Assembly (NCBI RefSeq): GCF_032062135.1
Contig: NC_092860.1
Location: 67,343,105-67,407,104 of the forward strand
Reading direction: 5' to 3'
DNA from: Pyxicephalus adspersus
Lineage: Eukaryota > Chordata > Amphibia > Anura > Pyxicephalidae
DNA: 64,000 bases
In this document: in pieces, positions 7,093 through 62,769 of the stretch
Layout: the number at the start of each line of letters is the position of its first letter
How positions within the stretch are numbered: position 1 is the first letter of the stretch
Program-made: the position numbers and the translations under genes
Notes under the pieces: generated by a model
What the model was told of the DNA's origin: nothing
Database searches by the model: none
The model's input: only the letters and a program-made list of their open reading frames with translations

Positions 7093-7245
7093 TACTTCCG
7101 GTTCCGGGGCCCAATGAGGTAAGCAGTGTTGAGTCACAGCTCAGGCTCCATTGCTGTATCATGCCTGCACTACTTTATTTCAGCTCCCGCACAGTCCAAA
7201 AGGCAGCAGCAGAAGCAGTCAGCCAAGAAGACTGCTCCATCTAAG

Positions 7246-8139
7246 ATGGCCGACGGCTCTGCTGACCACGTGGAAGTCACTACTCATTCAGGTACGGTGG
7301 ATGACTCTGCACACCACTGCCCCAGCATTGATTATCAAAAGCTTGCCAGGGAGGTTTCTCATCAACTACAGCCATGTCACTTAGAAAATTTTAGGGATGC
7401 TTTAGCCCTCCACTTGCAGCCCGTCACTGAAATTGTCAATAAGCATGGGGAGGACATGCATAATCTCCACCAATGTTTTAGTGACTTGGAGGACGAACTG
7501 CTGACGACCCGTACACAGCAGCAGCAGCTATGTGAGCAATATTGTCAACTTAATGAAAAAATGATTGATGTAGAAAACAGATCAGGCCGCAATATTCTCA
7601 GAATAATTGGGGTAGCGGAAACATATAAGGCGCCTGATCTCCACAAGTTATGCTCCTCTACACTTCCTAAAGCTCTGGGACTCAAAGCCCCCCTAAAGGT
7701 GAAATGTGCACATAGATTGAGGCCGTTGCTCCGCAATAGGTCTTCCCCTCGACTGAATATTGCTCAATATCTCAACTTTCTTTTTCTCACTGACAAAATG
7801 CAAACTGTAAAAGGATTTAGAGGGCAGGATCACTTCATTCTAGATGACAGCAGAATATTATTCTTCTCTGAGTACTCGCTGGGGACCTCCAAGTTGTGCA
7901 GGGTCTTCATACTTATCTGCAAACAACTGATAGCACAAGATATTAGATTTGCTTTAATGTACCCAGCGGATCTAAAAATTTTTACTTCAGACCGTGGAAT
8001 CCAAACATTCAAAGACCCTCAAGAGGCGGCATCTTTTGTTAAATTACTTCAGCCTATCCCTTATAAAGCTGCAGAGTCTTCTGGGTCGCCCAGACATGGA
8101 CCGGGTAGGTCCCCACCAGCATCCTTTTCCAGAGTTTGA
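7246..8139 (+). pseudogene. L1 copy A ORF1 (RNA-binding protein)
   Basis: The frame is open from 7126, but the first ATG in a plausible context is at 7246 (KMADG), giving about 297 codons. A heptad-like Leu/Gln-rich stretch (HNLHQCFSDLEDELL..QQQQLCEQYCQLNEKM) suggests a trimerising coiled coil. It is followed by the L1 ORF1 RRM signature ENRSGRNILRIIGVAE, the AHRL motif, and a C-terminal block ending in IRFALMYPADLKIFT (family form IRYSLLYPARLRI). It is the best preserved frame of copy A. L1 ORF1 proteins coat the element RNA and act as nucleic-acid chaperones. Whether this copy was recently active is unknown. Confidence 0.85.
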
Positions 8140-8690
8140 TTGGCCACTTTTGTGCATTCATTTCTTATGCTGCACTACACCAATAATTGCACATTTACTC
8201 TGGGAGCACAGTGGGCACATCTGCCATGGTTTGGCTTACTTTTGTTACTCAGACTGTCCAGAAGATGGAGCCAGTGAACCGCTTTTGGTCACACTGTATT
8301 GTTACTACTGTCCTGTTTTACTTGGTTTATACAAAGCATGGAAGGAAAGATGATCTTTTTTTTTTGTTTTGTCTTATTCACCTTACTACGTTACATGCTC
8401 CCACCACTCTCACTGGGAAAAAAGGAAGATCTTTGAAAGTATTACGATCTGAGACTCTTTTTGTCTTTTTCAACATATTATTTTTTAACTTTGTCTGTTT
8501 TTTTGTTCTTATGTTTGGGGACTTATGTACTTTGCTGGAATATGATGCCCACTACCCATCTTGGTCAATACAAGTTTCTACTGGCGGATGCCCTCTCCCT
8601 GCATGGCTGCTCAGCTGGGACAGCTATGCAGGATTCCTATTGTGTCTTCCTCATACTAGCTTCTCACTCAGTGAATTTAAACCTCTGTGA

Positions 8691-10640
8691 ATGCGGATAG
8701 CAACATGGAACATTAGAAGCTTTCCCTCTCCTACCAAGCAGAGGAAAATTCTGCGCCATTTAAAAAAATTGCAAACAGATGTGGCCATTCTGCAAGAAAC
8801 CCACCTATCCTCCACATTTTTTCTTGTCCTTCGCAAAAGTTGTCTGGGAGAAGTATGGGGGACCCCGGCACAAGGTTGGCGAGCAGGAGTGTTGTACTTG
8901 ATCAACAGGAAATTACAATACACAATACTCTCCAAATCCACTGTACTCTACATGTCTCTGAGGGCAGATGGGATTCCATTTCCCTACAATTCTCGTCAAG
9001 CTCTCTTAAGGTGCGTACACACTTCCAATTTTTATCGTTCCAATCGAACGACAAACTAACGATTGGGCAAAAAATCGTTCGTAAAAAAGTAACCAACGAC
9101 GCCGACGAACGAGGAAAGTCGTTGGAAACGAACGACCGGACCGGCGGATCGGATTGGACGACGATCGTTGAACATCGTTCGTGTGTACGGTCGTTCGTTG
9201 ATCGTCCATGATCTGAGCATGCGTAATGAACGAACGTTCGTTCACTTTCCTGTCGTGCACATAGTTCCTCTATCGCTTAAACGATCGTATCTATTATGTG
9301 TACAATATCTACGAACGATCGTGTCGTTATCTCTATGTGCAGGATCGGTGCTATACGATCGTTCGTATATATCGTGCAGGATCGTTCGTCGTTCATTTTC
9401 CAACGATAATAATTGGAAGTGTGTACGTAGCTTTACATTATTGGCTGTTTAGGGCCCCAACCAAGACAACAGTGCATTCAACAATTCAATATTTACCAAT
9501 CTTCATGGTTTACTGAATACTCCAATGATAGTTGCTGGGATTTCAATGCAGTAATAAATACTGGGGAAGATAGGCTTCCTCCCCCACAGAAACAAGGTAC
9601 TTCCTTATCTAATGACAGATCTTTCCAGTCCTTCATATCAGCTGCTGGATTAGTTGATTTTTGGAGAGACCTCCATCCTTTGGAGCGTGAGTACACGCAT
9701 GTGTCAACAGCACATTCCACGATGTCTAGGAGTGACACCATACTTGTTTCAGATGACTTGCTTTTTAAGGTTGCTTTGGCAGACATACACCCGATAGTGA
9801 TTTTGGACCATGCCCCAGTCACAATTGAATTCCCAGATGGTTTCCTGCATAAAACTGATTTTACCTGGAGATTTCCTGCGTTCCTAGCCAAAGATGAGAT
9901 GTTCCAGTGGACCTTAATACATTGGTGGATGGACTTTGAATTTAACAACACCAAACATAAGTCTAACCCCCAGCTTTACTGGGATGTTGCCTCCACCAAA
10001 AAAGGAAGACAATGAGTAAGTATATGGATGCTTGTGCACAAGCCAGAAAGGCATATGAGGTCTACAAACACTCTCTTACCTCTGCAGATAAGGAAGCTTG
10101 GTTACAGGAAAAAAACGTACATGTGATTTTTGGATCAACCAGTATGATTCCACCATAAGGTCTTACTGTTCGGGGGAATTTTACCGCCTTGGAAATATGT
10201 CAGGGAGGTTGTTGGCTAATTTGGCTGAGGGCTTCAGGGCACCCTCACTTATAGCTGCTATTAGAGACTCACAGAATAGTGTTCAAAAAACTCCAAGAAC
10301 TATTGGCTCTATTTTTGCTTCTTTTTACAAGACTCTGTACACCACACAGGGTAGTGATGTATCATTGGGTCAAGTTTTCTTAGACAGGTTAACTTTTCCC
10401 CATCTAACTGAGGAGGAATTGAATTGTTCAAATTCAGATATAACTGAGGAAGAGGTTTTTTCAGCAATCAAACATTCTGCCAATTGTAAAGCACCAGGAC
10501 CAACTAGTTTACCATCTGAGTTCTTTAAGATCCTAGTAGATAAGGTAGGGCCAACTCTCAAGTCACTTTATAACTACATGTTCTCCTCTTCCACCTACTT
10601 AGAGTCTGGTAACCTGGCATTTATCAAAGTGTTACTTAAA
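8691..10640 (+). pseudogene. L1 copy A ORF2, endonuclease and start of RT
   Basis: 8691 starts MRIATWNIRSF, the usual N-terminus of an L1-type apurinic endonuclease (catalytic N in WNIRS). LQTDVAILQETHL follows, with the catalytic E in QETH. The frame is cut by a MITE at 9009-9431. It resumes with PMIVAGDFNAV (GDFN box) and VILDHAPV (the D-H pair of the SDH box). After frameshifts, 10230-10640 reads SNSDITEEEVFSAIKHSANCKAPGP and LPSEFFKIL, the region just before the RT palm. It is broken at VLLKPG by the insertion of L1 copy B. Confidence 0.8.
9006..9434. mobile_element. PIF/Harbinger-like MITE rich in CGTTCG
   Basis: A 423-bp element (9009-9431) with ends AGGTGCGTACACACTTCCAAT and ATTGGAAGTGTGTACGTAGCT, flanked by TTA on both sides (9006-9008 and 9432-9434). 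A three-base TWA duplication is typical of PIF/Harbinger. The interior holds about eleven copies of CGTTCG or its complement CGAACG, far above expectation in this AT-rich region. It has no transposase. Related elements with GTACACAC ends lie at 19029-19355 and 47619-47906. Confidence 0.75.
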
Positions 10641-10867
10641 CCGGGGCGCATGCGCGAAGCAGACAGGCGCATGTGAGAATCCTTAGCCTGCTCCGCTCTA
10701 CACGGGGACAAGCAGGGCTGCAATTGGGCACATCAAGTGGCGGGTTTGGCATTGGGAGGCTCCCTGAGTGCGGAGCAGTATAGAGGGAGGCTTGCAGCTG
10801 GAGAAAATCAGATGCCGACTCACGGTAAGAGCCGGCAGCAGCATGTGTTAACACAGGCAGCCTCAGC

Positions 10868-11804
10868 ATGCAGGAGAGCCAAGATGGAGGATTCCTCCAT
10901 TCACATGTGTCAGGAAAAAGAGTGGAGTGCTCTAGTGAAACAGAGATGTATAGAGGGAGCCTGCCCTCAACACCAGTGGTTCAGTTACAGCATTCAGATT
11001 CAGAAAGCCTTTTGGAAAAATTTCAGTTAATGTTACATACAGCATTGGATAGTACCTCTAAGAAAATTACAGAACACTTTACAAGGAAGCTAAGAAAGCT
11101 GGGCCAGCCTACAGTAGAACTTGAGGGGCGAGTGGATGATGTTACCACTGTCCTAGAAGGACACAAAGAGGATATTGAGTATTTGAAACAGGGGGTACAG
11201 CTTTTACATCATAAAATGGAGTATTATGGGAACAGGATTCGCCACTCTAACCTCTGCATACGTGGCTTACCAGAAAGCACAATTGATCTTAATATAACAA
11301 TGACTGCCATTTTTTGTGATATATTTGGAAAGTGGAAAAGCTAGAATTGGACCGTGTACACTGTACATTAGTAAAACCAAAAGCTGATGGTCCACCAAGG
11401 GACATTGTGGTTAAGTTGCACTACCCCTATGTCAAAGATGCTATAATGAAGGCAGGCAGAAAGAAGGAACCCCTCACTTTTCAAGGTCATAATCACCAGC
11501 TTTTTATGGACTTGGCTACAGCAAGGATATTGCGCCGCAGAGAGATGAAACCATTCCTTCGGATCCTACAGAATCAACAGATTCTTTTAATTGTTCTTTA
11601 CATTTGGGGGCAATCTCTTCATTAGAGGAGGCCAGAAATCAGTTTCAGGAAATGGGACTTTATGCCTGTGATCAATATGAGAAATCGGACCAAGTGGAAA
11701 ATCCTAACCTGCCAACATCACCAATACCAGAAATACATCAGCAAAAAAGGACTAAGCAGCGTAAGGTCACAGAACGTTTGAGACTCTCTCAGAGCAATAT
11801 CTGA
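10868..11804 (+). pseudogene. L1 copy B ORF1, frameshifted
   Basis: The first frame (10868-11344) carries a coiled-coil-like stretch (ELEGRVDDVTTVLEGHKEDIEYLKQGVQLLHHKMEY is its span, residues about 80-115). It ends with NRIRHSNLCIRGLPES, the start of the RRM. A frameshift near 11335 moves the reading to 11332-11625, which carries LELDRVHCTLVKPKADG, DIVVKLHYPYVKDAIM and EPLTFQGH, the rest of the RRM and C-terminal domain of Tx1-type ORF1. A third frame covers the tail up to 11804. Not translatable as one protein. Confidence 0.8.
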
Positions 11805-12369
11805 ATACTTAATTTATTTGTGCCCCCTCTTTTTTTTTTCTTCCTGCTTTATTTAGGGGTTATGGAATTAATGTTGGTCAAAAATGTATGAAGGCCCCTT
11901 GTCAAATTGATATAATATTCCGGTAAATTTGGATATTTATCTACTAGCTTATCTAGGATAATAATTATGTATTTGTAAAGAGCATTTTTTTTTTTTAACG
12001 GTTAGTTGAATATTTAGAAAATGGCTTGATGTTAATAAGTATTTATTGATGGGCCCTGGTCCTGGTGTAGAGGTCACTGTAAGTTTCCAGGGATATCCTA
12101 GCCATTTAATGTTTTATTTATTTAATTAACTTGTTTATATTGCATTTTTGTGTTATCAGAAAGGGTGAAGGCGGGGTGATAGCGGGTCTCCACTCCGCAC
12201 ACCCAGGGTATATATATTATGCATAATGTCCAGTGTTTTGTTTGTTCAGTGTTACCCATCTTAGTCCGTATTTTTTCCCTTGTGTTTCTGTTGTAAGGCA
12301 GGGGGCATATTGCATAAATGTTTGTGATAGAAAAAGGGTATATACGAATTACTTGGAAAATATAGAGAA
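11805..12369 (+). other. L1 copy B spacer between ORF1 and ORF2
   Basis: AT-rich non-coding sequence between the two LINE frames, with T-runs and no recognisable promoter or RNA gene. Confidence 0.5.
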
Positions 12370-15300
12370 ATGGTTATTTCAATACTCTCTCTTAATGTAC
12401 AAGGTCTTAATTCCCCAGTTAAAAGGTCACAAGCCTTTCGGTATTTTCATATACGTAAAGCAGATGTAATACGCCTACTGGAGACACATTTCTCTACCTC
12501 CTCCTGTCCAAAATATTTTCATGCGGCCTACCAAATCGTCTTCAAAGCTAACGCAGCAGTAAAACGAAGAGGGGTGTTTATTGGCTTTAGGAAGACTGTG
12601 TCATTGCAGTTGGATCAAAAGGTGGTGGATGAGGATGGTCGATACTTGATATTGGTTGGAACGTTAAATGACGCTAAAGTGACATTGGTGTCTTACTATG
12701 CTCCTAATGAGAATCAGTTGCTTTTTTTTTTAACAGCTGATGATTTTGGTCCGTAAAAATGTGCAAGGTTATTTGATGATGTGTGGTGACACCAATGTTC
12801 CACTAATACCAAGTATGGATAAGAGAAGAATATCTTTGGATTCTGCTGTATGTGTGGATAATAAATTTTCAAATAAGTTGCTGGATTTGGTGAAATCTGA
12901 AATGTCAGATATGTGGAGGGAATTACATCCTAAAGAAATGGAGTACACATATTTTTCCCATCCTCACCAACTATTTACCTGTATAGACCATATTTTAATA
13001 CATCAAAAAGCATTGCCCTTGGTTTTGTCTTGTGATATTTTGGCGATCTCATGGTCAGACCATGATGCAGTTTGGGCTACATTGTCTTCCCTTTTTCCTA
13101 AGCCTAATATGTTTAAATGGTCACTTAATGACTCTTTGCTCAGTAACCCTGAGGTGGACCAAAAAGTACATGGGATTTTGGTCGAGTATTTCTCTTTAAA
13201 TCAACAACCTTCGACATCACTGGTTGTGCTATGGGCGGCGCATAAGATGGTGGTAAGGGGACGACTCATACAGATAACCACACAGTTTAAAAAGGAACGT
13301 AGGGCAAAAGTAATGGAGTTAGAATCTAAATATGAAAAGCTGAGAATGCAATACAAAACATTATTAAATAAGAGTATAAGACGACAAATGGAGGAAGTCC
13401 GTACACAATTAAATCTTTGCACAGCATCTATTGCTGAGAAAACGTTGAGTTGGTCAAATAATAAATTTTATAGATATAGTAATAAAATGCATACATTATT
13501 GGCAAATAGGCTGAGGTACTCGGAAAGACGCCCAAACACCTATAGACTGAGGGTAAGGGGGATTGGTGCCACTAGTGATCCAATGCATATATTGCAGGAA
13601 TTTTATGAACATCTACAAAAACTGTACCAAACCCCTTATTCTTTTGATAAGAGAGCGATGGAAACATTCTTTCAGTTTATAAATCTTCCAAAGATTACGG
13701 CTAATAGAATAGAAATTATGGAAGCCCCTATCACCTTGTTGGAGGTGATTAAAGCTATTGGGGATCTTAAACCCAAAAAGAGACCAGAACCTGATGGGTT
13801 CACGACAGTATAATATAAAACATACCAGCAAATACTGGGACCTTATTTGGTGGAAACATTTAATGGGATTTTGAAAGGGGAAGCCCTTGACTTGAGTATG
13901 TTGGAAGCTGCCATCTGTATGCTACCAAAACCCTCTGCTGATGCAATGAATTGGTCTATAGGCCAATTTCTCTTCATGATCTGGATGCAAAGATATTGGT
14001 GACAATATTGGCGTCCTGATTGGAAGATAGTTTGGGTGACCTAGTGTCGGCTGACCAAACGGGCTTTATACCCAGACGACAAGCGGGAGATAGTACACTG
14101 AGGATATTGCATTTAATTCAACAAGCTAAACAAAATAAGACATCAGCTTTTTTACTGAGTTTTGATATAAGCAAAGCGTTTGACTCAGTGTTATGGCCAT
14201 ATCTTATATCATTATTAAACAAATGGGGCTTTGGAGAGAACTTTTGTAAATGGGTTTCCTCATTGTATGACTCCCCTAAGGCATTTATACAATAAATGGG
14301 TTACTGTTCAGAACGTTTTTCTATAGGCCGGGGTACCAGGCAGGGTTGCCCACTGTCGCCATTGCATTTTGCACTGGCAGTAGCTATCCCTGACTATAGC
14401 TATCCGAAATAATGTTGACATTCAGGGTAGAGATAAATGGGGGACAACATAAACTCTGTCTTTTTGCAGATTATTTTCTCCTTAGTCTGACGAACCCCAT
14501 GGTAACCTTGCCCAACCTGATGAAGGTAATGGAAGGCTTTCAGGCTGCAGTTAAATAAATCAAAATGTAAGGCTCCAAATATTAATTTATCAACAGAAGT
14601 GGTAAAACTGCTTAAATATTCTTTTCCCTTTCAATGGAAGAATTAGCTACCTGGGTATATATATGCCTTCATTATATGAGCTCCTGTATAGTGTCAATAT
14701 CCCTGATTTGGCGAAACATTTGATTGGTTTATTAGAAACATGGAAACGTAATCAAATCTCATGGTTGGGCTGCATAGCTTCTATAAAGATGTCCTGGTTA
14801 CCAAAGTTCCTATATCCCATGAGAGTTCTTCCATTAGCTATGCCTAACCAGGTCATAAAAAAAGGTTCAAAGCAAAATGTAAGAATATATTTGGGGGGCA
14901 AAGCAGCCACGAGTTCCAAGACATACCTTACATCGATCTAGGAACCTGGGCGGCCTATCGGTGCCGCAATTGATTTCATACTGTAAGGCTGCTCAAGTTA
15001 CTCCCCTGTTACAGTATTATGCCCAAAAGAATATTCCTAAATGGGTTTCTATTGAGAAAACATTGGTGGCGCCAATTTCAATAGATACATTACTCTGGAT
15101 TCCAGAGGTAGAACGGCGCCATATCACCAATCCAATACTGAGACACTCATTAAAAATATGAGCCTTATGTCTGGCCATAGCCCAGTAAGTTCTATATTTG
15201 ACCGCCTGGTCTGGAGGAACCAAGGCGTTTTTCATGGTGGGTCGAAAAGGATTTATAAAGAATTTGCCATTTTATTATGGCAGGGATTTTATCTTTTAGT

Positions 15301-55600: not shown

Positions 55601-57508
55601 TCACCATCCATCTGAACGTAACCTTGCTGGTATTGGGGATTTTATTAGAGAGATCCCACACATACTTTCTATTTGTCAATAGTTTCAGCCAAATGGAAGT
55701 GAGGGAAAATCTACAATAGGGACAAAACCAACAGCGGACTTGTGTACTAGCTTTGCTCTGCTTCACGAAAAACAATATATATAGATTTGTATCCATTAGC
55801 CAGATACAGCGGTCATCATAACAGGAAGCAAGCAAATCTCTTTAATCAAGCCCCAGTTAGTAGCAGGTTCTAACCATTCCCCAAGTTTCAGAGGTTTTAA
55901 TGACATGCATTCTTTTAATGCAGATCTGCAGCTAGATTGGAGACAACCTAAAGTGTCAATGCAAAAGTGCAAATGTCCAGCATCTGATCAATCTGCTGCT
56001 AGGAATTCCAATATATTCATCTTGGGAATATCTCCATTAGCACAGCCAGTAGGACCCTTTGAGTGGAGATGAGAGTGGCCCCTACATGGGTGAAAAGTCC
56101 AAATACAATGAGGTTAGCTTAAAAAAACAAATCTAAAATATCTTCTGGAGCATTGAAAAACCATTAGAACTTCCGTTTTGTTGCATTTCCTGTTGGGAAA
56201 ATCTCCCAATCCCTTCCTCTGCATCATATTTCACAGCTTTCCTGTGCTCATGGCTTAACTGTTTCTGCACATGAGCATGCCACAGGACAATGTCCATCCA
56301 TAAGAAACATACTTATGGCGGTAGATGATGTACACTTTTCCAGTTCTCTTAAGCCGCTCCCCCCAGGCCTAGTTTCTAATGGTACTTCCCTGTACACAGC
56401 TGTGTGCGGATGCTGCAATGAGCTTTGTTATAGTAGATAAAGCAACTTATTCAAACCCTCTGACCCTGTCTGCGCCTGAGCCCCAAGTACATGGAATATT
56501 CATATTCAGTATTGAATAGCGGTGTATTATATGTACATTACACATGACACATGTGATAGCATAAGCCATTAGTCACATGTTAGTAATTAGTATTATTCAA
56601 TAGAATGTAATCATAACATCAAACATGGGCATCTTGTGCCAATTTTATATTCAGTGAGGGGGGGGGGGGATTAGTACAGGGTACCAAAATGGCCAGAAAA
56701 AGCCCAACCTCACCAGCATGGCTAGCGAGAATCTGTAATCCAGAGCCACAAATATCCACCGCCAGACTTTAAATCTGGAAAGCTAATGGGAAGTGCCCAT
56801 GTCACCAGGCCAAAAAAGATGACATCTGACAAGGAGCCCCCAGACCCTCACACATCAATTAAGTACTCCATACTTTTTATTTCTATTTAATGTGAAAGTC
56901 ATCAGATGGAGGGTGGCAGATGGATCACATCCAGGCAATAATGATAAAGACATACCATTTCTAAGGACATGCCTGTTGTATAGGAGGCGGACACCCTGGC
57001 CTGGTCATTCCATACACTTTTACAGGAACATACATCTCTAGATAGACCTCCTGAAGCAAGGTGCCCACATAAACAGCCATATGCAGGCCCAGCAAGGATT
57101 AGAGGTAGTTTGGAGACAGCCAGGTCAGGGAGCAGCAGACACCGGGGCTGGAATGTGAGCATTACCACACAGCCTTATAAGGAGCTCAGACAACTCCTAC
57201 AGCAACTTAGACAAGTCCTGCCGAATATCACCCTGTCAGAGGTATATGAGAACACCCCATACAGCCTGGCCACATTCTAGTCATAGAATATACATAAATA
57301 TACCACACACACATTGCAAATCCCCTCAAACAAGAGGTCACCCAACTACTACACGCTCCCCGGCTACCTGCTCCTGTACCTGGCAGTTCTGGTAGCTCTC
57401 AAATGCCCGTAGGGCGCTGTCGGTGAGCTTGACGTGGAAGACAGACACCCTCCCTCCGACCCTTCCACAAGACAGCCCGTAACTCCGCTCCTCCTTCAGC
57501 GCCGCCAT
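24604..57508 (-). CDS. ELL: RNA polymerase II elongation factor ELL (12 coding exons)
   Basis: ELL raises the elongation rate of RNA polymerase II by suppressing pausing. It works in the nucleus in the super elongation complex and in the little elongation complex for snRNA genes. The spliced frame is 57380-57508, 43451-43498, 41610-41731, 40216-40379, 35170-35423, 34319-34443, 32668-32767, 29968-30421, 27770-27836, 27504-27675, 25056-25100 and 24604-24717. It totals 1794 nt, 597 residues (human ELL about 621). The N-terminus [17 protein letters not shown] and the block [15 protein letters not shown] are ELL rather than ELL2 or ELL3. Residues about 1-285 form the ELL domain. A basic patch [10 protein letters not shown] lies at about 427-436. 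Residues about 488-597 are the occludin-homology domain. Every junction keeps phase, with GT-AG splice sites except the GC donor of intron 4. No inactivating change is seen. Confidence 0.95.
25056..25100 (-). CDS. ELL: ELL exon 11 (45 nt)
   Basis: Encodes [15 protein letters not shown]. Acceptor TATTTTAG, donor AAA|GTAAGT, both phase 0. The [10 protein letters not shown] word is identical to the known family form. Confidence 0.95.
25555..25783. mobile_element. PIF/Harbinger-like MITE fragment in ELL intron 10
   Basis: Shares the words gagtgctgtacat.catacagcac, ggagcggcaccctgctg, cgccaggacggt and gtccgatatc.gcccc with the element at 19029-19355. The terminal GTACACAC ends are missing or mutated. 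Non-coding. Confidence 0.6.
25784..27503 (-). other. ELL: ELL intron 10, remainder
   Basis: AT-rich intronic sequence with short A-runs. No further exon or repeat end is recognised. Confidence 0.5.
27504..27675 (-). CDS. ELL: ELL exon 10 (occludin-homology domain, first part)
   Basis: Encodes [20 protein letters not shown], then [20 protein letters not shown] and [13 protein letters not shown]. It is a helical coiled segment shared with the occludin C-terminus. Acceptor ATCTTAG, donor AAG|GTATAC, phase 0. Confidence 0.95.
27676..27769 (-). other. ELL: ELL intron 9, with a 24-N assembly gap
   Basis: Only 94 bases separate exons 10 and 9, and 24 of these (27713-27736) are N. The true intron length is therefore unknown. 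Both splice sites are outside the gap and intact. Confidence 0.9.
27770..27836 (-). CDS. ELL: ELL exon 9
   Basis: Completes a split Asp and encodes [21 protein letters not shown], matching the GLNGTCS..PTSTSE.PDYL region of ELL. Acceptor CTTCTAG, donor TT|GTAAGT, phase 2. The following intron carries the assembly gap. Confidence 0.92.
27837..29967 (-). other. ELL: ELL intron 8
   Basis: Plain AT-rich intronic sequence, ending near the exon 8 donor in an A-rich run (about 29905-29941). No repeat family or extra exon is recognised. Confidence 0.5.
29968..30421 (-). CDS. ELL: ELL exon 8 (linker, lysine-rich patch)
   Basis: Encodes [20 protein letters not shown], then [16 protein letters not shown], a Ser/Pro-rich stretch, and [19 protein letters not shown], a likely bipartite nuclear-localisation signal. 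It ends SGALQDVL plus one base. The acceptor CTTTACAG is preceded by a run of about 18 C in the gene direction (just beyond 30434), which makes an unusual polypyrimidine tract. Confidence 0.95.
30475..31010 (-). mobile_element. L2/CR1-like LINE 3' end in ELL intron 7
   Basis: The plus-strand words tcttggagcc.tgcgtgt, agagagcagctag.ggagtat, gtaagtggg and ggcaaagca are shared with 62770-62960. Read on the minus strand, they give [13 protein letters not shown] and [18 protein letters not shown], the end of an L2-type LINE reading frame, then tail words such as ctatataaatactg. Stops throughout. Confidence 0.65.
31609..31655 (-). ncRNA. Degenerate hammerhead-like motif 3
   Basis: On the minus strand the order CTGGGGA (646-640), short stem II, GAAA (626-623), AC-GU-GU mini stem III and GUC (619-617) resembles the other two motifs. 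The core carries A-to-G at its fourth position, and stem I does not pair. Probably a decayed copy. Confidence 0.3.
31850..32021 (-). mobile_element. pogo/Tigger-like repeat fragment in ELL intron 7
   Basis: On the minus strand it begins CAGGGAGTCCCCGGGTTACA next to a TA and continues tacgagataggaactgtagg, matching the element at 19457. The opposite end is not defined. Confidence 0.5.
32668..32767 (-). CDS. ELL: ELL exon 7
   Basis: Completes the split Arg and encodes [20 protein letters not shown] and on to TSPYPQ. It begins the low-complexity linker after the ELL domain. Acceptor CCCCTATAG, donor CAG|GTAAGT, ends in phase 0. It is supported mainly by the RKLCQPQ match and the phase fit. Confidence 0.9.
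33351..33710. repeat. Interspersed repeat with CTAAACTGAAAA end, ELL intron 6
   Basis: It starts aaaggaactaaactgaaaac. Inside, gggcagtgccctgcatc, ttgcgcatgcccca..tgctcgggcatgcgc and agcacccaagagcctacc match, in reverse orientation, the copy at 50640-51032. A (TG)n run is at 33572-33591. Probably a non-autonomous DNA element. Confidence 0.55.
34319..34443 (-). CDS. ELL: ELL exon 6
   Basis: Encodes [20 protein letters not shown] and on to [18 protein letters not shown]. The WPGYSE.D.QLLKR block is a hallmark of the ELL N-terminal domain. Donor CG|GTATGT, phase 2 (the split codon is Arg). Confidence 0.95.
35170..35423 (-). CDS. ELL: ELL exon 5 with tandem CAGCAG acceptor
   Basis: Encodes (V)[19 protein letters not shown] and on to [22 protein letters not shown]. 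The acceptor is TTTCAGCAG: the exon can start at 35426 or 35423, adding or removing one alanine. The second site gives the same spacing as human ELL. Donor CAG|GTAAAT, phase 0. Confidence 0.93.
35603..35861. mobile_element. hAT-type MITE in ELL intron 4
   Basis: Left end CAGTGGTCGCCAACCTTTTG and right end GGCCACCGGTTGGCGAC form a terminal inverted repeat. The flanks ttttagga and gtttagga match in 7 of 8 bases, consistent with an old 8-bp hAT duplication. An inner palindrome gtgagccccac..gggctcac is also present. Non-coding. Related to 20028-20245. Confidence 0.7.
36188..36497. mobile_element. TTAA-type MITE in ELL intron 4
   Basis: Left end caatcttcctggaggtattc and right end cattccgccagggaggttaa are inverted partners (TTAACCTCCCTGGCGG form). 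The hairpin CCCGAGTGTGGCTCGGG follows the left end, and an AT palindrome (gattttttaatgtacc..ttaaaaatc) lies near the right end. Confidence 0.7.
36500..38130 (+). pseudogene. Tx1-like L1 C-terminal fragment (copy C) in ELL intron 4
   Basis: The frame 36956-37570 and pieces before it carry PRITG.., [33 protein letters not shown] and [12 protein letters not shown]. This is the order seen after the reverse transcriptase in L1 copies A and B (IRHFIQTRLR, TWFEKLCV). The 3' UTR ends in an A-rich tail at 38090-38130 (aattcaacaaaaactcaata). It lies antisense to ELL. No RT catalytic region is present. Confidence 0.7.
38415..39840 (+). mobile_element. Tc1-like DNA transposon with broken transposase, ELL intron 4
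   Basis: The element 38417-39838 (1422 bp) begins CAGTTAGGTCCATAAATATT and ends with its complement, with TA on both sides. The transposase is readable only in pieces. A helix-turn-helix region ([37 protein letters not shown]) is followed by the DDE domain with [19 protein letters not shown], a DND-type box with a stop inside, and [19 protein letters not shown]. Stops and frameshifts throughout, so it is inactive. Confidence 0.9.
40216..40379 (-). CDS. ELL: ELL exon 4, ends at a GC donor
   Basis: Encodes [20 protein letters not shown] and on to [14 protein letters not shown]. The last exon base is followed by GCAAGT, not GT. The AG|GCAAGT form is the consensus of GC-AG U2-type introns, and only this junction keeps the reading frame into [11 protein letters not shown] of the next exon. 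Ends in phase 1. Confidence 0.92.
40380..41609 (-). other. ELL: ELL intron 3
   Basis: AT-rich intron with an A-run of about 23 near the exon 4 acceptor (40389-40415), read as poly-T on the gene strand. No repeat family is recognised. Confidence 0.5.
41610..41731 (-). CDS. ELL: ELL exon 3
   Basis: Encodes [20 protein letters not shown] and on to [11 protein letters not shown]. This region matches the FSFYLSNIGRDNPQGSFDC-type block of ELL. Acceptor ATCACAG, donor CAG|GTGAGC, ends in phase 2. Confidence 0.93.
42285..42776. mobile_element. TA-flanked MITE with CCG.ATTTTCCGGCGTATA ends, ELL intron 2
   Basis: The element 42287-42774 begins CCGCATTTTCCGGCGTATAG and ends CTATACGCCGGAAAATACGG, flanked by TA. 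The subterminal words gggtcgtcttata are also inverted. Inside are three separate hairpins: cttcccc..ggggaag with tttcatac/gtatgaa, ctgttccttctgcct..aggcagaaggaacag, and ccaactgattggttag..ctaaccaatcagttgg. Non-coding. The TA duplication suggests a Tc1/mariner-type mobiliser. Confidence 0.8.
43451..43498 (-). CDS. ELL: ELL exon 2 (48 nt, in frame)
   Basis: Encodes [16 protein letters not shown]. Acceptor TTTTTTTGTAG and donor GTAAGT are strong. Both ends are phase 0 and the length is divisible by three, so skipping would remove exactly 16 residues. A TA/CATA/CA microsatellite lies 70 bases upstream in the gene direction. Confidence 0.95.
43568..43686. repeat. Compound TA/CATA/CA microsatellite in ELL intron 1
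   Basis: About 26 TA units run into CATA repeats and then (CA)n on the plus strand. On the ELL strand this reads (TG)n-(TATG)n-(TA)n, ending about 70 nt before the exon 2 acceptor. Confidence 0.95.
43687..45427 (-). other. ELL: ELL intron 1 stretch, mostly unrecognised
   Basis: AT-rich sequence with a short G-run near 44114. The word tttttaataaagttttcc at 44816 resembles a reversed LINE tail, but I could not confirm an element. Confidence 0.4.
45428..45470 (+). ncRNA. Hammerhead-ribozyme-like motif 2
   Basis: Stem I ttaccc (45428-45433) pairs perfectly with gggtaa (45465-45470). The core reads GTGAAGA (consensus CUGANGA, first base changed). One extra A follows, as in motif 1, then stem II gcct/gggt, GAAA at 45455-45458, mini stem III AT-GC-AT, and a NUH triplet ATT. 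Compared with motif 1, stems I and III differ in sequence but still pair. The first core base is mutated, so this copy is probably inactive. It lies antisense in ELL intron 1. Confidence 0.45.
45690..46010 (-). pseudogene. Tx1-like L1 reverse transcriptase fragment in ELL intron 1
   Basis: On the minus strand the text reads [35 protein letters not shown] and [12 protein letters not shown]. This is the RQGCPLSP palm box, the catalytic YADD box (here YASDD, with an extra residue) and the SG.K.N region of L1 elements. It is short and flanked by unrecognised DNA. Confidence 0.75.
46060..47459 (-). other. ELL: ELL intron 1 stretch, nothing recognised
   Basis: No exon, repeat end or RNA gene could be identified. 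A T-run is near 47370. Confidence 0.4.
47460..48230. mobile_element. hAT-type element with perfect 8-bp duplication, ELL intron 1
   Basis: The element 47468-48222 (755 bp) begins CAGAGGTTG and ends CAACCTCTG. It is flanked by the perfect 8-bp duplication CTATTGAG (47460-47467 and 48223-48230). The subterminal parts are full of the word GACTTG and its complement (cttggactcaagtcc, gactcgacttgg, gacttgacttgg), as expected of transposase-binding arrays. A second MITE is nested at 47619-47906. Non-coding. Confidence 0.85.
47617..47908. mobile_element. GTACACAC-ended MITE nested in the hAT element
   Basis: The element 47619-47906 begins AAGCTGCGTACACACGTCAG and ends GCATGTGTGTACGCGGCTT, flanked by TA on both sides. 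The inner hairpins gatttttatcgcccgata..tatcgggcgaaaatc and cgttggaaaggatc..gatcctttccaacg are strong. Same superfamily look as 9009-9431, although the flank is TA rather than TTA. Confidence 0.75.
48231..50639 (-). other. ELL: ELL intron 1 stretch, nothing recognised
   Basis: AT-rich intronic DNA. No exon, repeat end or RNA gene is identified. Confidence 0.4.
50640..51032. repeat. Interspersed repeat with AAAGAGGAACT ends, ELL intron 1
   Basis: Left words aaaagaggaactttcagttt and right words cacttttcagtttagttcct are inverted partners. The interior matches 33351-33710 in reverse orientation (caagcatctcgggcatgc, gctcttgggtgc, gcggaattgaaggc). Probably a MITE family. Confidence 0.6.
51033..53039 (-). 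other. ELL: ELL intron 1 stretch, nothing recognised
   Basis: AT-rich intronic DNA with no recognisable coding or repeat feature. Confidence 0.4.
53040..53265 (-). mobile_element. hAT-like terminal fragment
   Basis: On the minus strand it begins CAGGGGTGTTAACTCAAATC and continues ataaagggccaaaatcc. This is the kind of end known in vertebrate hAT elements (CAGGGGTGT..AACTC). The opposite end and a target duplication are not found. Confidence 0.4.
53365..54340 (+). pseudogene. CR1-type LINE fragment in ELL intron 1
   Basis: The plus-strand frame 53375-53626 has [36 protein letters not shown] and [20 protein letters not shown]. These are the post-catalytic RT blocks of the same family as 2885-3425. 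It continues with frameshifts through the [19 protein letters not shown] block to the tail near 54340. Antisense to ELL. Confidence 0.75.
54341..57379 (-). other. ELL: 5' part of ELL intron 1, nothing recognised
   Basis: AT-rich with T-, G- and A-runs (54789, 56656). No repeat family or exon is recognised. Intronic enhancers cannot be judged from sequence alone. Confidence 0.4.
57380..57508 (-). CDS. ELL: ELL exon 1 (codons 1-43)
   Basis: The start codon at 57508-57506 opens [17 protein letters not shown]. No upstream in-frame ATG precedes it in the visible open frame. The exon ends ESYQNCQ at a CAG|GTACAG donor, phase 0. The start sits in AAGATGGCGGC, which has an A at -3 and a G at +4. Confidence 0.93.
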
Positions 57509-57511: not shown

Positions 57512-57759
57512 AACAACACCATTCCTACCACCACCGCTGCTCACCCTACCAGTCCCTCCTCCTCCATTACATTTTTAGGTAGCTTCTACTATTGGCTGGA
57601 TAAAATGTCTTTCTTCTTAAATGACCAATAACCAACTTTCTCTGACGCTACAGGCCTGCTTAACACCCATTGGCTTTAGCGAGCGGAAAAAGGCGTGGTC
57701 TCTCAGTTCCGTTTATTACAGCCTGGTGTTCTAACGATCTACCCATAAAATAAATCTAC
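57512..57759 (-). promoter_or_regulatory. ELL: Putative ELL core promoter with CCAAT boxes
   Basis: Immediately upstream of the start codon is a CpG-containing stretch with no TATA box. It has three CCAAT boxes: on the gene strand at 57595-57591 and 57673-57669, and in the opposite orientation at 57625-57629. The spacing of 34-44 bp resembles an NF-Y array. It ends where a large inverted-repeat element begins at 57760. Confidence 0.55.
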
Positions 57760-58209
57760 CAGGGGGCGTGAACAAATGGGCGTGTGCAATGACGTCATCA
57801 TCAGGAAAGTTTTACAGCTGTATTTGTGTATGAATGCAGCATGTCATGTTCTGGAGCACTACATCTCTCCCAGTACAAACCTCCATATCTCCTAAACAGT
57901 TTGTCCTACCAACCTGAAATTGTCAGGGTACACAGGGGACCCTCATAGCTGGCAGTAGTCCAAATTTCATCCCCTCATCTTTAACAACTGTCAAAATATG
58001 TGGATCATAATTATAAAATCTAGTGAAAATTGAACATCAGGGTTGCTGTTTTAAAAGTAAGTGTGACTGGATGCCCCAAATTAAACATACAAATTATGGA
58101 CCCCCCGGGCAACTTACATAGCAAGGAGGTGCAAACTCCAAATTTATACCTACCTGTCACAAAACTAGAAATGTCATAATACACTACCCTGTCCCCTTCC
58201 CGATTTTGA

Positions 58210-59430
58210 ACCCCAATTTCTCCAGAACAGGGTGATGTACAAAACTAAAAATGAAGGTGTAAGTAGGGGGACACCTGTGGCTAACACACCCTAATATTTT
58301 ATCGTTAGGAGATAAAGAACTCCACCATTCAAAAAAATCTACCCTGTTACACAGTGCAGGAGGCTTCTAACATCTAAACCCCAATTTCTCTGAAACGGGG
58401 GGTACAGGTGATCAAAATAAGAGATGCAAGTGGGGGACACCTCTGGCTAACACCCGCTAAAATTTCATCACTATGACATCGTCAGCACATAAAGAACTCT
58501 GCCCATCAAAAAAATCTAACATGTTACACATTGCTGGAGGCTTGTAGAGAGAAGGGATAAATGGCTTTTTACCGTAAACATAAAGTATAGCAGTTAAAAT
58601 CCTTTATTCGTAAACATTAAACATAAAAAGAGAGATTAAGCTACAAGTGACTTTAGTCATCTCATACCGAATTCATATGATCATACTTGAATTAGTAAGT
58701 GATACACTCCTTACAATTCTTTAAAGATCAAAATATATATAATATTTTAGGATTTTGATCTTCAAAGAATTGTAAGGAGTGTATCACTTACTAATTCAAC
58801 TATGATTTTAGGAATTTGTTATGAGATTACGAAAGTCACTTGTAATATAACCTCTCTTTTTTGTTGTTTAATGTTTACAAATGAAGGATTTTAACTGCTA
58901 TACTATATAAGTTTGCCGTAAAAAAACGCTATCCCTTCATTTTACATTTATACTAACTAAGCAGCTTGGCAACTACTAAAGTAGTATTTAATTTACTGTC
59001 CTGTGGGATATACTTTCTATCTCTTTACACATGTATACCTAGAGGCTTGTAATGCCTGAACCCCAATTTCCCAGGAACGGGGGGGGGGGGGAGGTACAGG
59101 TAAACAAAAAAATAGGTGCATGTGGGGATCACCAGTGGCTAATACCCCATACAATTTATTAATTAGGTCATCATCAGAATATAAAAAACTCTGCCCATCA
59201 AAAGAATCTACCCTGTTACACATTGCGGGGGGCTTGTAACGCCTGAACCCCAATTTCTCTGTAACGGGGGTTACAGGTGAACAAACTTAGAGGTGCAAGC
59301 GGGGGACACATGTGGCTAACACCCCCTAAAATTTCACCGCTATGGCATCATCAGAAAATAAAGAACTCTGCCCATCAAAAAATTCTACCGTTACAAATTG
59401 CTTGAGCACCTGAAACCCAATTTCATCAAT
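58210..59430 (+). repeat. Left array of the ~178-bp unit (interrupted)
   Basis: The anchor word ccccaatttc recurs at about 58212, 58378, 59059 and 59247, with a decayed form at 59413. Uninterrupted spacing is 166 or 188 bases. The 58378-59059 gap holds a foldback insertion. Confidence 0.8.
58554..58935. mobile_element. Foldback (near-palindromic) element inside the left array
   Basis: A 382-bp near-perfect palindrome starts GGGATAAATGGC and ends GCTATCCC. The arms include cagttaaaatcctttatt/aaggattttaactgc and cttacaattctttaaagatc with its complement. The centre is near 58745. A gaggcttgta word occurs on both sides (58537 and 59042) and could mark a larger insertion. Non-coding. Confidence 0.8.
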
Positions 59431-59539
59431 GTGTAACAATGTGTGACGACGGCCTAACGATTAAATTTTAGAAGATGTTAGTCACAGGTGTCCCTCATTT
59501 GTACCTCTAATTTTGTTCACCTGTACCCCCACGTTCCTG

Positions 59540-60980
59540 CAACATTGGGGTTCAGATGCTTGATGCCTTCAGCAATGTGTAACCAGGTAGATTTTTTTAA
59601 AGAGCTGACTTTTTGACTTGAGTTTTGACAATGGCCTAACAAATAAATTTTAGGGGGTGTTAGCCATTGTTGTCTCCCACTTGCACCTCTAGTTTTGTTC
59701 ACCAGTTATGCCCCTTTCCAGAGAAATTGGGATTCATGTTTTAGAGGCCTCCAGTAATGTGTAACAGAATAGATTTTTTTGATGGGCAGAATACTTTATG
59801 TTCTGACAATGCCATAACAGTTAAATTTTGGGGGGGGTGTTAGCCACTGGTGACCCCCACTTGCATCTCTATTTTTTTTTACCTGTACCCCCTTATGAAA
59901 TAATGGGGTTCAGGCATTAGAAGCCTCCAGTAATGTGTAACAGGGTGGATTTTTTTGATGGGCAGAGTTTTTTATGTTCTGACAATACCTTAGTGATGAC
60001 ATTTCAGGAGGTGTTAGCCACACGTGTCCCCCATTTACACCTCTAATTTTGTTCACCTGTACCGCCCTGTTCCTGAGAAATCAGGGTTTAGGTGTTAGAA
60101 GCCTCCAGTAATGTTTAGCAGAGTAGATTTTTTTGATGGGCAGAGTTTTTTATGTTCTGACAATGGCCTAACTATGAAATTTTAGGGGGTGTTAGTCACA
60201 GGTGTCCCCCACTTGCACCTCTAATTTTGTTTATCTCTAACCCCCCCCGGTTCCAGAGAAGTTGGGGTTCAGGTGTTAGAAGCCTCCAGCAATGTGAAAC
60301 TGGGTAGATTTTTTTGATGGGCAGAGTTCTTTATGTTTTGACGATGCCTTAGCGATTAAATTTTAGGGGCTGTTAGCCACACGTGTCCCCCACTTGCACC
60401 TCTAATTTTGTTTATCTCTAACCCCCCCCCGGTTTCTAAACAAATGGGGATCAATCATTAGAAGCCTCCAGCAATGTGTAACAGTGTAAATTTTAGATGG
60501 GCAGAGATTTTTATGTTCTGACAATGGCCTAACTATGAAATTTTAGGGGGTGTTAGTCTCAGGGGTCCCCCATTTTTACCTTTAATTTAGTTCACCTGTA
60601 CCCCTGCGTTCCTGAGGTATCGGGGTTCAGGTGCTTGATGCCTTCAGCAATGTGTAACAGGGTAGATTTTTTTGATGGGCAGAGTTTTTAATGTTCTGAC
60701 GAAAAGCCTGATGAAATTTTAGGGGGTGTTAGTTACAGGTGTCCCCCACTTGCACCTCTAATTTTGTTCACCTGTACCCCCTGTTCCTGAGTATTAGGGT
60801 TCAGGTGCTAGAAGCTTCCATTAATGTGTAACGGTAGATTTTTTTGATGGGTGGAGGTTTTAATGTTCTGACGAATGGCTTAACAATGAAATTTTAGGGG
60901 GTGTTAGCCACGGGTGTCCCCCACCTGCACCTACATTTTTGGTTTTGTAAATCTCTCTTCCTGAGAAATTGGGGTTCAAA
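59540..60980 (-). repeat. Right array of the ~178-bp unit, inverted
   Basis: The anchor word ttggggttcagg (complement of the left-array anchor) recurs at about 59546, 59728, 59902, 60078, 60262, 60440, 60616, 60794 and 60965. This gives nine units with spacing 171-184. Units share tagatttttttgatgggcag and aattttagggggtgttag. Confidence 0.85.
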
Positions 60981-61383
60981 GTAGGGAAGGGGACAGGGTA
61001 GTGTAGTATGACATTTCTAGTTTTGTGACAGGAAGGCATAAACTTGGGGTTCGCACCTCTTTACTCCGTAAGTCACCCCGGGGTCTATAATTTGTATGTT
61101 TAATTTCGGGCTTCTAGACACTTTTAAAACAGCAACCCTGATGTTCAATTTTTCACTAGTTTTTATAAATATGAAATTTTAAAAATTGTTAAAGGTGGGG
61201 AGATGAAATTTGGCTTACTGCTAGCTATGAGGGTCCCTTGTGTACCCTGAAAATTTCAGATTTGGAAGATCTGGAGGTTTGTACTGGGAGATATGTAAAG
61301 CTGCAAAACATGACATGCTGCATTCATACACAAATATAGCTGTGAAACTATCCTGACGATGACGTCATTGTACACGCCCCCTG

Positions 61384-62769
61384 TTATAGAAATGATGGGT
61401 GGCGTCAGAACTCCAGCTGTTTGCCCCGCCCTTGCATTGAACTTCGATCGTAATTGGTTACCACTTAATTGGGCGTGGCTTGATAGTAGACGTCAAAGAA
61501 GGGGCAGGCTTTGCAAATAAAAACACGTGAAGCCTGACAGATGAGCGATCAGCTGGCTCCAAGTGTCAGGAATGTGCTCTGGGAAACTACTCGCTACTTC
61601 TTTTTCCTGGTTCATGACTGGAGCTGTGTAATAAAGCAGGCTGGCAGATGAGACGAGGACAGATGAGAAAATATGTTTGTGTGCTCAATAGTATTTCAGC
61701 TTGTCTTTTACCTGTTTTTGAGATCTAATCGGTGCTCTGTTTTTGCTTTACACCGAGCTTGGGACCGAAAAGCTTTTAAATGCTTTACCACAGGGTGGCG
61801 CCTGCACTTCCTATTTGACACTGACTGCATGCTTTAAAACAAGTTGGTGGATTTGTTTCCTAATAAACCTCAACTACCCCCTGGAGTATGGGATGAAAAA
61901 GGTTTTAAAAAATATTTTAAAATATTATTAAAGACGCTCACAGATACAGAGTGGTGCCATCTTTGTCACGCTACCATGCAGGGAAAAAAAAAAAAAAGAC
62001 AAAGCGCAAAGGGGGAATTTTGGCACATTTGGCACTGTCCACAAAAAGCATACCCAACTAAATGCTCAGTAAGATAATGTGTTTTTATTACACCATTTAA
62101 AATAGATCCCACCCTTTTAATATTTTTTCTTGTACCGATAATCTCCACAAAGGTAGTCCCAGAATTGTAAGCTTTAGCACATATGGAACTGCAAATCTGA
62201 ACAGAATACTTTTGAAACCTTCCCCACAGTTCATGCCCAAGGTGGCAAATTCTTTTCACTTTAATCAAAAGTTGGCCTTTCCTAATTTCTTATGGACTCC
62301 CAGACTGATCATGTTCGTTGGATCCTGCAGGTCTATTTAAAAGTGACAGCATCGATCAGAGGTTCCAAAAGATTGTCCATGGGTTTAGGAAAGACCAAGC
62401 AACTATGACATGCACTTTTATTATTAGAGCCTTAAGTGTTGCTCCAAAGTAAATGCTTACCTGTAAAGTCATCCCTGGATACTCATAGGAAGCCAATGGT
62501 ACAATACACAAAACACAACGTGACAAATATTGGGTGTGACAACACTGTAACCAGATCCCAAAGAAGGATTGTATTAATTTAATATTCTGCTTCCTCACAT
62601 TTGCACCTCTTGTTTATCATTTATGTTTACATTCCTTGTGCACCACTCATTTTTGCACTCATCCTCAATCATTGCAACCTTTTTGATCACCACTGCAAAT
62701 CTCTTGGTCACAAACTGCTCTTACACTTCTCACCTCAGTGCACAGCCCGGCAACCCCACTCCTCAATCG
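61384..62769. other. Flank upstream of ELL, no gene recognised
   Basis: The first 180 bases contain CpGs, two ATTGG words, a GTAGACGTCAAAG CRE-like word and an E-box CACGTG (near 61525). They may be ELL promoter DNA displaced by the 3.6-kb element, or the promoter of another gene. Beyond this I see only short frames without family likeness. Confidence 0.4.

Follow-up and report, generated by a model that had tools for sequence, protein, structure and literature searches.

The window analysed here, a 64,000-nucleotide stretch of the genome of Pyxicephalus adspersus, harbours on its minus strand an ATG (57506-57508) which opens the N-terminus of ELL (PF10390, E 2.5e-12), in agreement with the gene named in the initial annotation. 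The region adjoining ELL was found to be a large imperfect palindrome, the arms of which (57778-58541 and 60640-61379) align in inverted orientation over 777 columns with 81% identity in the self-alignment of the window. Satellite units with a period of ~178 bp, located by a unit-profile search (nhmmer), face the centre from both sides of the element. The features of the locus are as follows:

57506..57508, minus strand: ELL start codon, opening the ELL N-terminus
57723..57726, plus strand: CTGG at the left target site, a single CpG transition away from CCGG
57727..61412, no strand: whole element, 3686 bp, ends TGTTCTAACG ... CGTCAGAACT fixed by other genomic copies
57727..58195, plus strand: left arm (flanking domain), from self-alignment, unit-profile borders and other copies
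57760..57770, plus strand: CAGGGGGCGTG, internal and no terminus, as other copies reach further out
57790..57797, no strand: CRE-like palindrome TGACGTCA of the left arm, read in the window sequence and present in the family consensus
58196..58547, minus strand: outer part of the left satellite array (nhmmer)
58548..59015, no strand: nested insertion splitting the left array, bounds approximate, holding a palindrome
59016..59424, minus strand: inner part of the left satellite array (nhmmer)
59449..60979, plus strand: right satellite array, eight units of ~178 bp and a truncated unit adjoining the arm (unit-profile search)
60980..61412, minus strand: right arm (flanking domain), from self-alignment and family consensus
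61360..61367, no strand: TGACGTCA of the right arm, read in the window sequence
61413..61416, plus strand: CCAG at the right target site, a single CpG transition away from CCGG

The right array (59449-60979) is composed of eight units and one piece, and the left array (58196-59424) of ~4.2 units' worth of sequence in six pieces, so that both the inverted repeat and the two opposed tandem arrays reported initially (~5 and ~9 units) are real. The reported lack of an open frame holds as well, the longest stop-to-stop frame wholly contained in the element being 89 aa, and a scan of such frames revealed no transposase coding sequence with OTU or Ulp1 in the window copy. Long inverted arms, internal tandem repeats and the lack of coding capacity, by which fold-back elements are recognized, are all found in this element. 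The nested insertion (~58548-59015), which had not been set apart before, contains a 404-bp palindrome (58543-58946) with 83% self-complementarity, and no further copy of it was detected among 67 loci, the window's own record (L001) apart. Elsewhere in the window, self-alignment revealed no second copy of the element, and long open frames that appear LINE-like by eye are located at ~7100-13900.

The ends of the element had initially been assigned to a matching pair of 11-bp sequences, CAGGGGGCGTG and CACGCCCCCTG. Both of these are internal: homology with 20 other copies was found by alignment to run on outward to TGTTCTAAC, and the copies extend to TGTTCTAACG (57727) and CGTCAGAACT (61412), which also rules out CAGGGGGCGTG as a terminus with hAT-like or other duplications. 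The true ends, TGTTCTAAC...GTTAGAACA (57727-61412), lie outside those first noted, by 33 bp on the left and by 29 bp on the right. Consistent with this, the 60-bp flanks outside CAGGGGGCGTG and CACGCCCCCTG are alike in inverted orientation (score 31, with 1/1000 shuffles as high), the shuffles as high rising to 8/1000 and 62/1000 for 100-bp and 200-bp flanks, respectively. In the window, a short inverted likeness (ACAG) goes a few bases beyond the inferred ends (57727 and 61412), and is taken for chance because the flanks differ in other copies. Since the true left end is located further out, the distance to the ELL ATG is 218 bp and not 252 bp, as had been stated. By eye, these 218 bp contain several CCAAT-like and GC-rich motifs. 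The CRE-like TGACGTCA, found in both arms and in the consensus, would place two sites near each complete insertion.

The initial proposal of a dispersed non-autonomous transposon is supported by 42 genomic matches to the outer 201 bp, window included (40 of 2114 first-look candidates being scored), by their differing flanks and by the 4-bp target duplications described below. In addition, a 22-bp end pattern has 26 exact matches in the genome, compared with 0 for the reversed-pattern control, and the dispersed copies are distributed over 14 large contigs, many of them with identical ends. A sample of 52 genomic loci besides the window was assembled from the 20 best left-arm query matches after the window, 12 further right-arm query matches and 20 loci that together account for 22 of the 26 places where the 22-bp pattern is matched exactly. 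Copies with matches to one or both of two hAT segments, on one or both arm sides, were designated type B and those with none type A. In this sample, which is biased toward the best matches and in which the type shares are not genome frequencies, 33 of the 52 loci (15/20, 8/12 and 10/20 by source) belong to type B and 19 (5, 4 and 10) to type A, the window being an additional type A copy. The association with hAT sequence had not appeared in the initial annotation.

Type A copies stand alone, each in other flanking sequence; in one locus filed under this type, L022, 63 bp of upstream sequence weakly match the 3' part of hAT. Among type A copies with two ends, length varies from 475 bp in L046 and 794 bp in L027, neither of which has unit matches, up to the 3.7 kb of the window copy. 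Long arms at both ends seem unnecessary, since L023 and L052 retain no more than the final few bases of that on the right. The mean Kimura distance from the class consensus is 0.11 for type A (15 arms), a value inflated by the left arm of L024 (0.34), which runs into the array, and 0.09 for type B (14 arms). Judged by their sequences, the copies are old, and the one in the window is best explained as an old, dead non-autonomous fold-back DNA transposon of type A. More diverged relatives consisting of arm and units (~68-81% by piece) are present at L014:7130-7966 and at ~1396-2264 and ~6309-7020 of L027, which hints at older subfamilies.

No autonomous copy with type A ends was found. The interior of L037 (G000:C1:107289818-107292518), where a segment containing IS630/Tc1-like coding sequence interrupts the arm, was considered as a possible autonomous partner and, on inspection, rejected as an insertion within the arm; the start of this segment presumably resembles the TcMar-ISRm11 group. 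Likewise, the interiors of L043 and L053 were rejected as a source of a transposase with type A ends, as by inspection they resemble insertions of RT-type retroelements.

Among 20 type A copies, including that of the window, the 4-mer at the left flank is CCGG in six and CCAG in another six, with CTGG, CCAA, CCGC, CCTG, CCGA, CCCT, GTAC and CTGA occurring once each (the CCCC at the left end of L067, also of type A, is not counted here); the background frequency of CCGG in 60 loci and the window is 0.00077. In the case of the ten two-ended copies, the flanking 4-mers are identical in four (L024, L034, L035, L046), CCCT and CCGC being among the exact pairs, and agree at three of four bases in L023, L027, L052 and L055, at two in the window and at none in L041. 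Re-pairing of the left and right 4-mers gave a mean of 25.6 matching bases versus the 30 observed (p 0.03; exact pairs alone, p 0.06), a modest result because nearly all flanks favour CC. Hence a 4-bp target duplication in type A appears to be supported, if not overwhelmingly, by the flanking sequences. CpG decay would explain flanks such as the CTGG and CCAG of the window, each of which is a single transition from CCGG; the CCGC and CCCT pairs, both exact, depart from a strict Ginger1 target (CCGG or CCGT/ACGG). As for hAT, with its CAGGGG-type ends and 8-bp duplication, no match to its 5' or 3' segment was detected beside the window copy, and the 8-mers at 57719-57726 and 61413-61420 agree at only 4/8 bases. 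The CCNN form of the target was also observed on the sampled long-end side of 17/20 type A copies and on the right flank of 10/10 two-ended ones. A symmetric element should give NNGG equally often, and the excess of CCNN suggests that the ends have a polarity not otherwise visible.

As given in the accessible part of its description, Ginger1 produces 4-bp target duplications (CCGG in 75%, CCGT/ACGG in 24%) and has TGTNR ends, with listed TIRs of 40-270 bp (PMC2836005). In land vertebrates, Ginger1 is represented by host genes, according to the same partial text (PMC2836005), and by protein relics, many of the reported relics being from frog, according to an extract of another source (PMC9004415). 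The element resembles Ginger1 in its 4-bp duplication with an apparent preference for CCGG, TGT...ACA ends and inverted terminal repeats, and differs from what that description contains (PMC2836005) in the lack of coding sequence, the fifth base (C and not the R of TGTNR), the arms of 430-470 bp and the internal satellite arrays. The agreement would be good for the length of the duplication and the preferred target, and partial for the sequence of the ends. Contrary to the initial view that no superfamily could be named, a Ginger1-type assignment, to a class of DNA transposons that is seldom encountered, can be proposed from the duplication and the ends, the element being Ginger1-type by signature and not a proven member.

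It is possible, though rather unlikely, that type A is instead a fold-back of another integrase-like or unnamed superfamily with CCNN preference and 4-bp duplications. The fifth base, the arms exceeding the Ginger1 TIRs of the partial listing and the exact CCCT and CCGC pairs would all be compatible with such an origin, and IS481EU of parabasalids also has 4-bp duplications and TGT..ACA-like ends, as stated in the available section of its report (PMC10045372). Moreover, neither the PF17921 nor the OTU profile search linked a Ginger1 transposase to type A ends. The OTU profile (PF02338) gave 7 candidate matches from 19 candidates, which gives no hint that Ginger1 copies with OTU are numerous, and PF17921, with 150 scored matches of 2517 candidates, was dropped as a probe because this family alone does not separate Gypsy from Ginger1. 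However, the combination of TGT..ACA ends, 4 bp and CCGG was encountered for Ginger1 alone in the accessible portions of the open-licence literature; the element family may already be catalogued in Repbase/Dfam.

Type B copies contain ~90-150 bp of hAT sequence on the 5' side and ~200-230 bp on the 3' side, and are bounded by CAGGGGTCGGCAACC (5') and GGTTGCCGACCCCTG (3') with 8-bp duplications, a combination which we take to mark hAT elements. Both hAT ends were located in 14 of the 33 copies, and, with the candidate ends that match best taken as the pair, the 8-mers agreed at at least 6/8 bases in 13 of the 14 (exactly in 9); the other 19 copies have no locatable end pair, 10 of them with just ~60 bp outside the arm. 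The 4-mer preceding the A end in type B is CCAG in 11, CTGG in 4, CAGG in 4, CCGG in 2 and some other sequence in 6 of 27 loci, six more without a findable start (L011, L018, L021, L028, L029, L036) being left out. Mostly just one half of A is present. At the 3' junction, other middle sequence was found in 5 of 22 aligned loci, and four others examined by unit profile all end in a unit piece, two of them with an additional short piece in opposite orientation. In one type B locus (L058, G000:C9:40732300-40734500), two copies of one arm piece, in one orientation and separated by 1103 bp, represent a local duplication.

Two transposases, that of type A itself and that of hAT, have probably dispersed the repeat, because in type B an A end occupies a CCGG-like site within a hAT element that has its own 8-bp duplications. 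The simplest reading is that A inserted into hAT and lost one half, after which the spread was driven by hAT. The opposite course, in which the arm is original hAT sequence and an inverted duplication of it gave rise to type A, which then spread along with hAT, seems quite improbable to us. It would account for the hAT sequence in 33 of the 52 sampled copies, and the A and B arm consensus sequences differ by just 1.4%, with A and B mixed on a star-like arm tree (10 label changes versus a shuffled mean of 13.2, 17/500 shuffles being as low). Yet type A copies have a constant starting point whatever their flanks, lack hAT ends and carry mostly a CCNN 4-mer, not a hAT 8-mer, while the TGTTC end in type B follows a CCGG/CCAG-like 4-mer, as an A insertion would. 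The tree was not accepted as a demonstration of one capture event, its star-like topology being unresolved. An inverted segmental duplication confined to the ELL locus, with which the 81% identity of the arms would agree if the duplication were old, is refuted by the dispersed copies on 14 large contigs, many of them with the same ends, and the dispersed copies equally exclude the locus-specific inversion that the initial annotation had named as its counter-case.

The history of the arrays can be followed from the agreement between units. The eight full right units agree mutually at 0.80, the two full left units at 0.84 and left with right units at 0.80, compared with 0.81 between the window units and those at other loci. 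Since the units of the window are no more alike mutually than they are to units elsewhere, a freshly expanded array is ruled out; by this measure, the array existed before the copies dispersed and was not rebuilt at the window locus. In both A and B, the arm-adjacent unit is mostly truncated at the same point (profile position ~108). The unit search yielded 133 matches in short clusters (best 40 of 1867 candidates scored), and the seeding of satellite DNA by the element, as suggested initially, was not seen, the repeat predating dispersal and the scored units forming such short clusters.

Galileo of Drosophila makes a 7-bp duplication, and miDNA4 of Xenopus targets TA. In the partial accounts available, Galileo and Foldback share with the present element the long, internally repetitive inverted arms and differ from it in belonging to the P superfamily. 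Non-autonomous hAT elements are represented by type B, where hAT merely carries A sequence, and their ends and 8-bp duplications are lacking in the window copy. Tetris of Drosophila virilis is, in the section of its report at hand, a non-autonomous fold-back with a fixed outer domain and ~220-bp tandem repeats in each inverted arm; variable unit number and deleted derivatives are further likenesses, whereas its 8-10 bp duplications and its fly host set it apart, as do kb-size satellite arrays of its repeat, none of which was found among the scored unit sites here (best 40 of 1867) (PMC4079207). The frog MITEs miDNA4 and Xmix/Xstir of Xenopus also bear a tandem repeat, a likeness drawn by description alone from parts of the reports, and miDNA4 differs as a Tc1/mariner MITE (PMC9659126, PMC12628747).

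Taken as a whole, type A is in our opinion probably a non-autonomous fold-back mobilized in trans by a Ginger1-type transposase, with one copy of the element multiplied within hAT. In each half of the element, ~430-470 bp of fixed arm sequence give way inward to a tandem run of 178-bp units, and the halves are opposed. An integrase-like transposase of Ginger1 type, supplied in trans, would have cut the ends and joined them at CCGG-like sites, the ELL promoter being merely a CG-rich target, and unequal exchange among units already present in the ancestral element would have led to the variable unit number. One A copy would then have landed in a hAT element and multiplied along with it. For the wider reading, we lean somewhat towards a vertebrate Ginger1-type fold-back family with an ancestral satellite array in its arms, one copy of which entered a non-autonomous hAT element, so that a second, unrelated transposase spread arm and array, and two systems of transposition came to disperse a single tandem repeat.

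Beside the ELL promoter, the element places a mirror-image sequence of 3.7 kb with CRE-like palindromes, the regulatory role of both being purely a candidate one. The time and place of Ginger1 transposase activity in frogs would become directly accessible through a repeated non-autonomous family that retains its insertion signature. Furthermore, the tandem array appears to have been fixed in the element before dispersal and then to have entered a second class of transposon, and therefore accounts of the passage from transposable element to satellite that are drawn from copy location alone can mislead.
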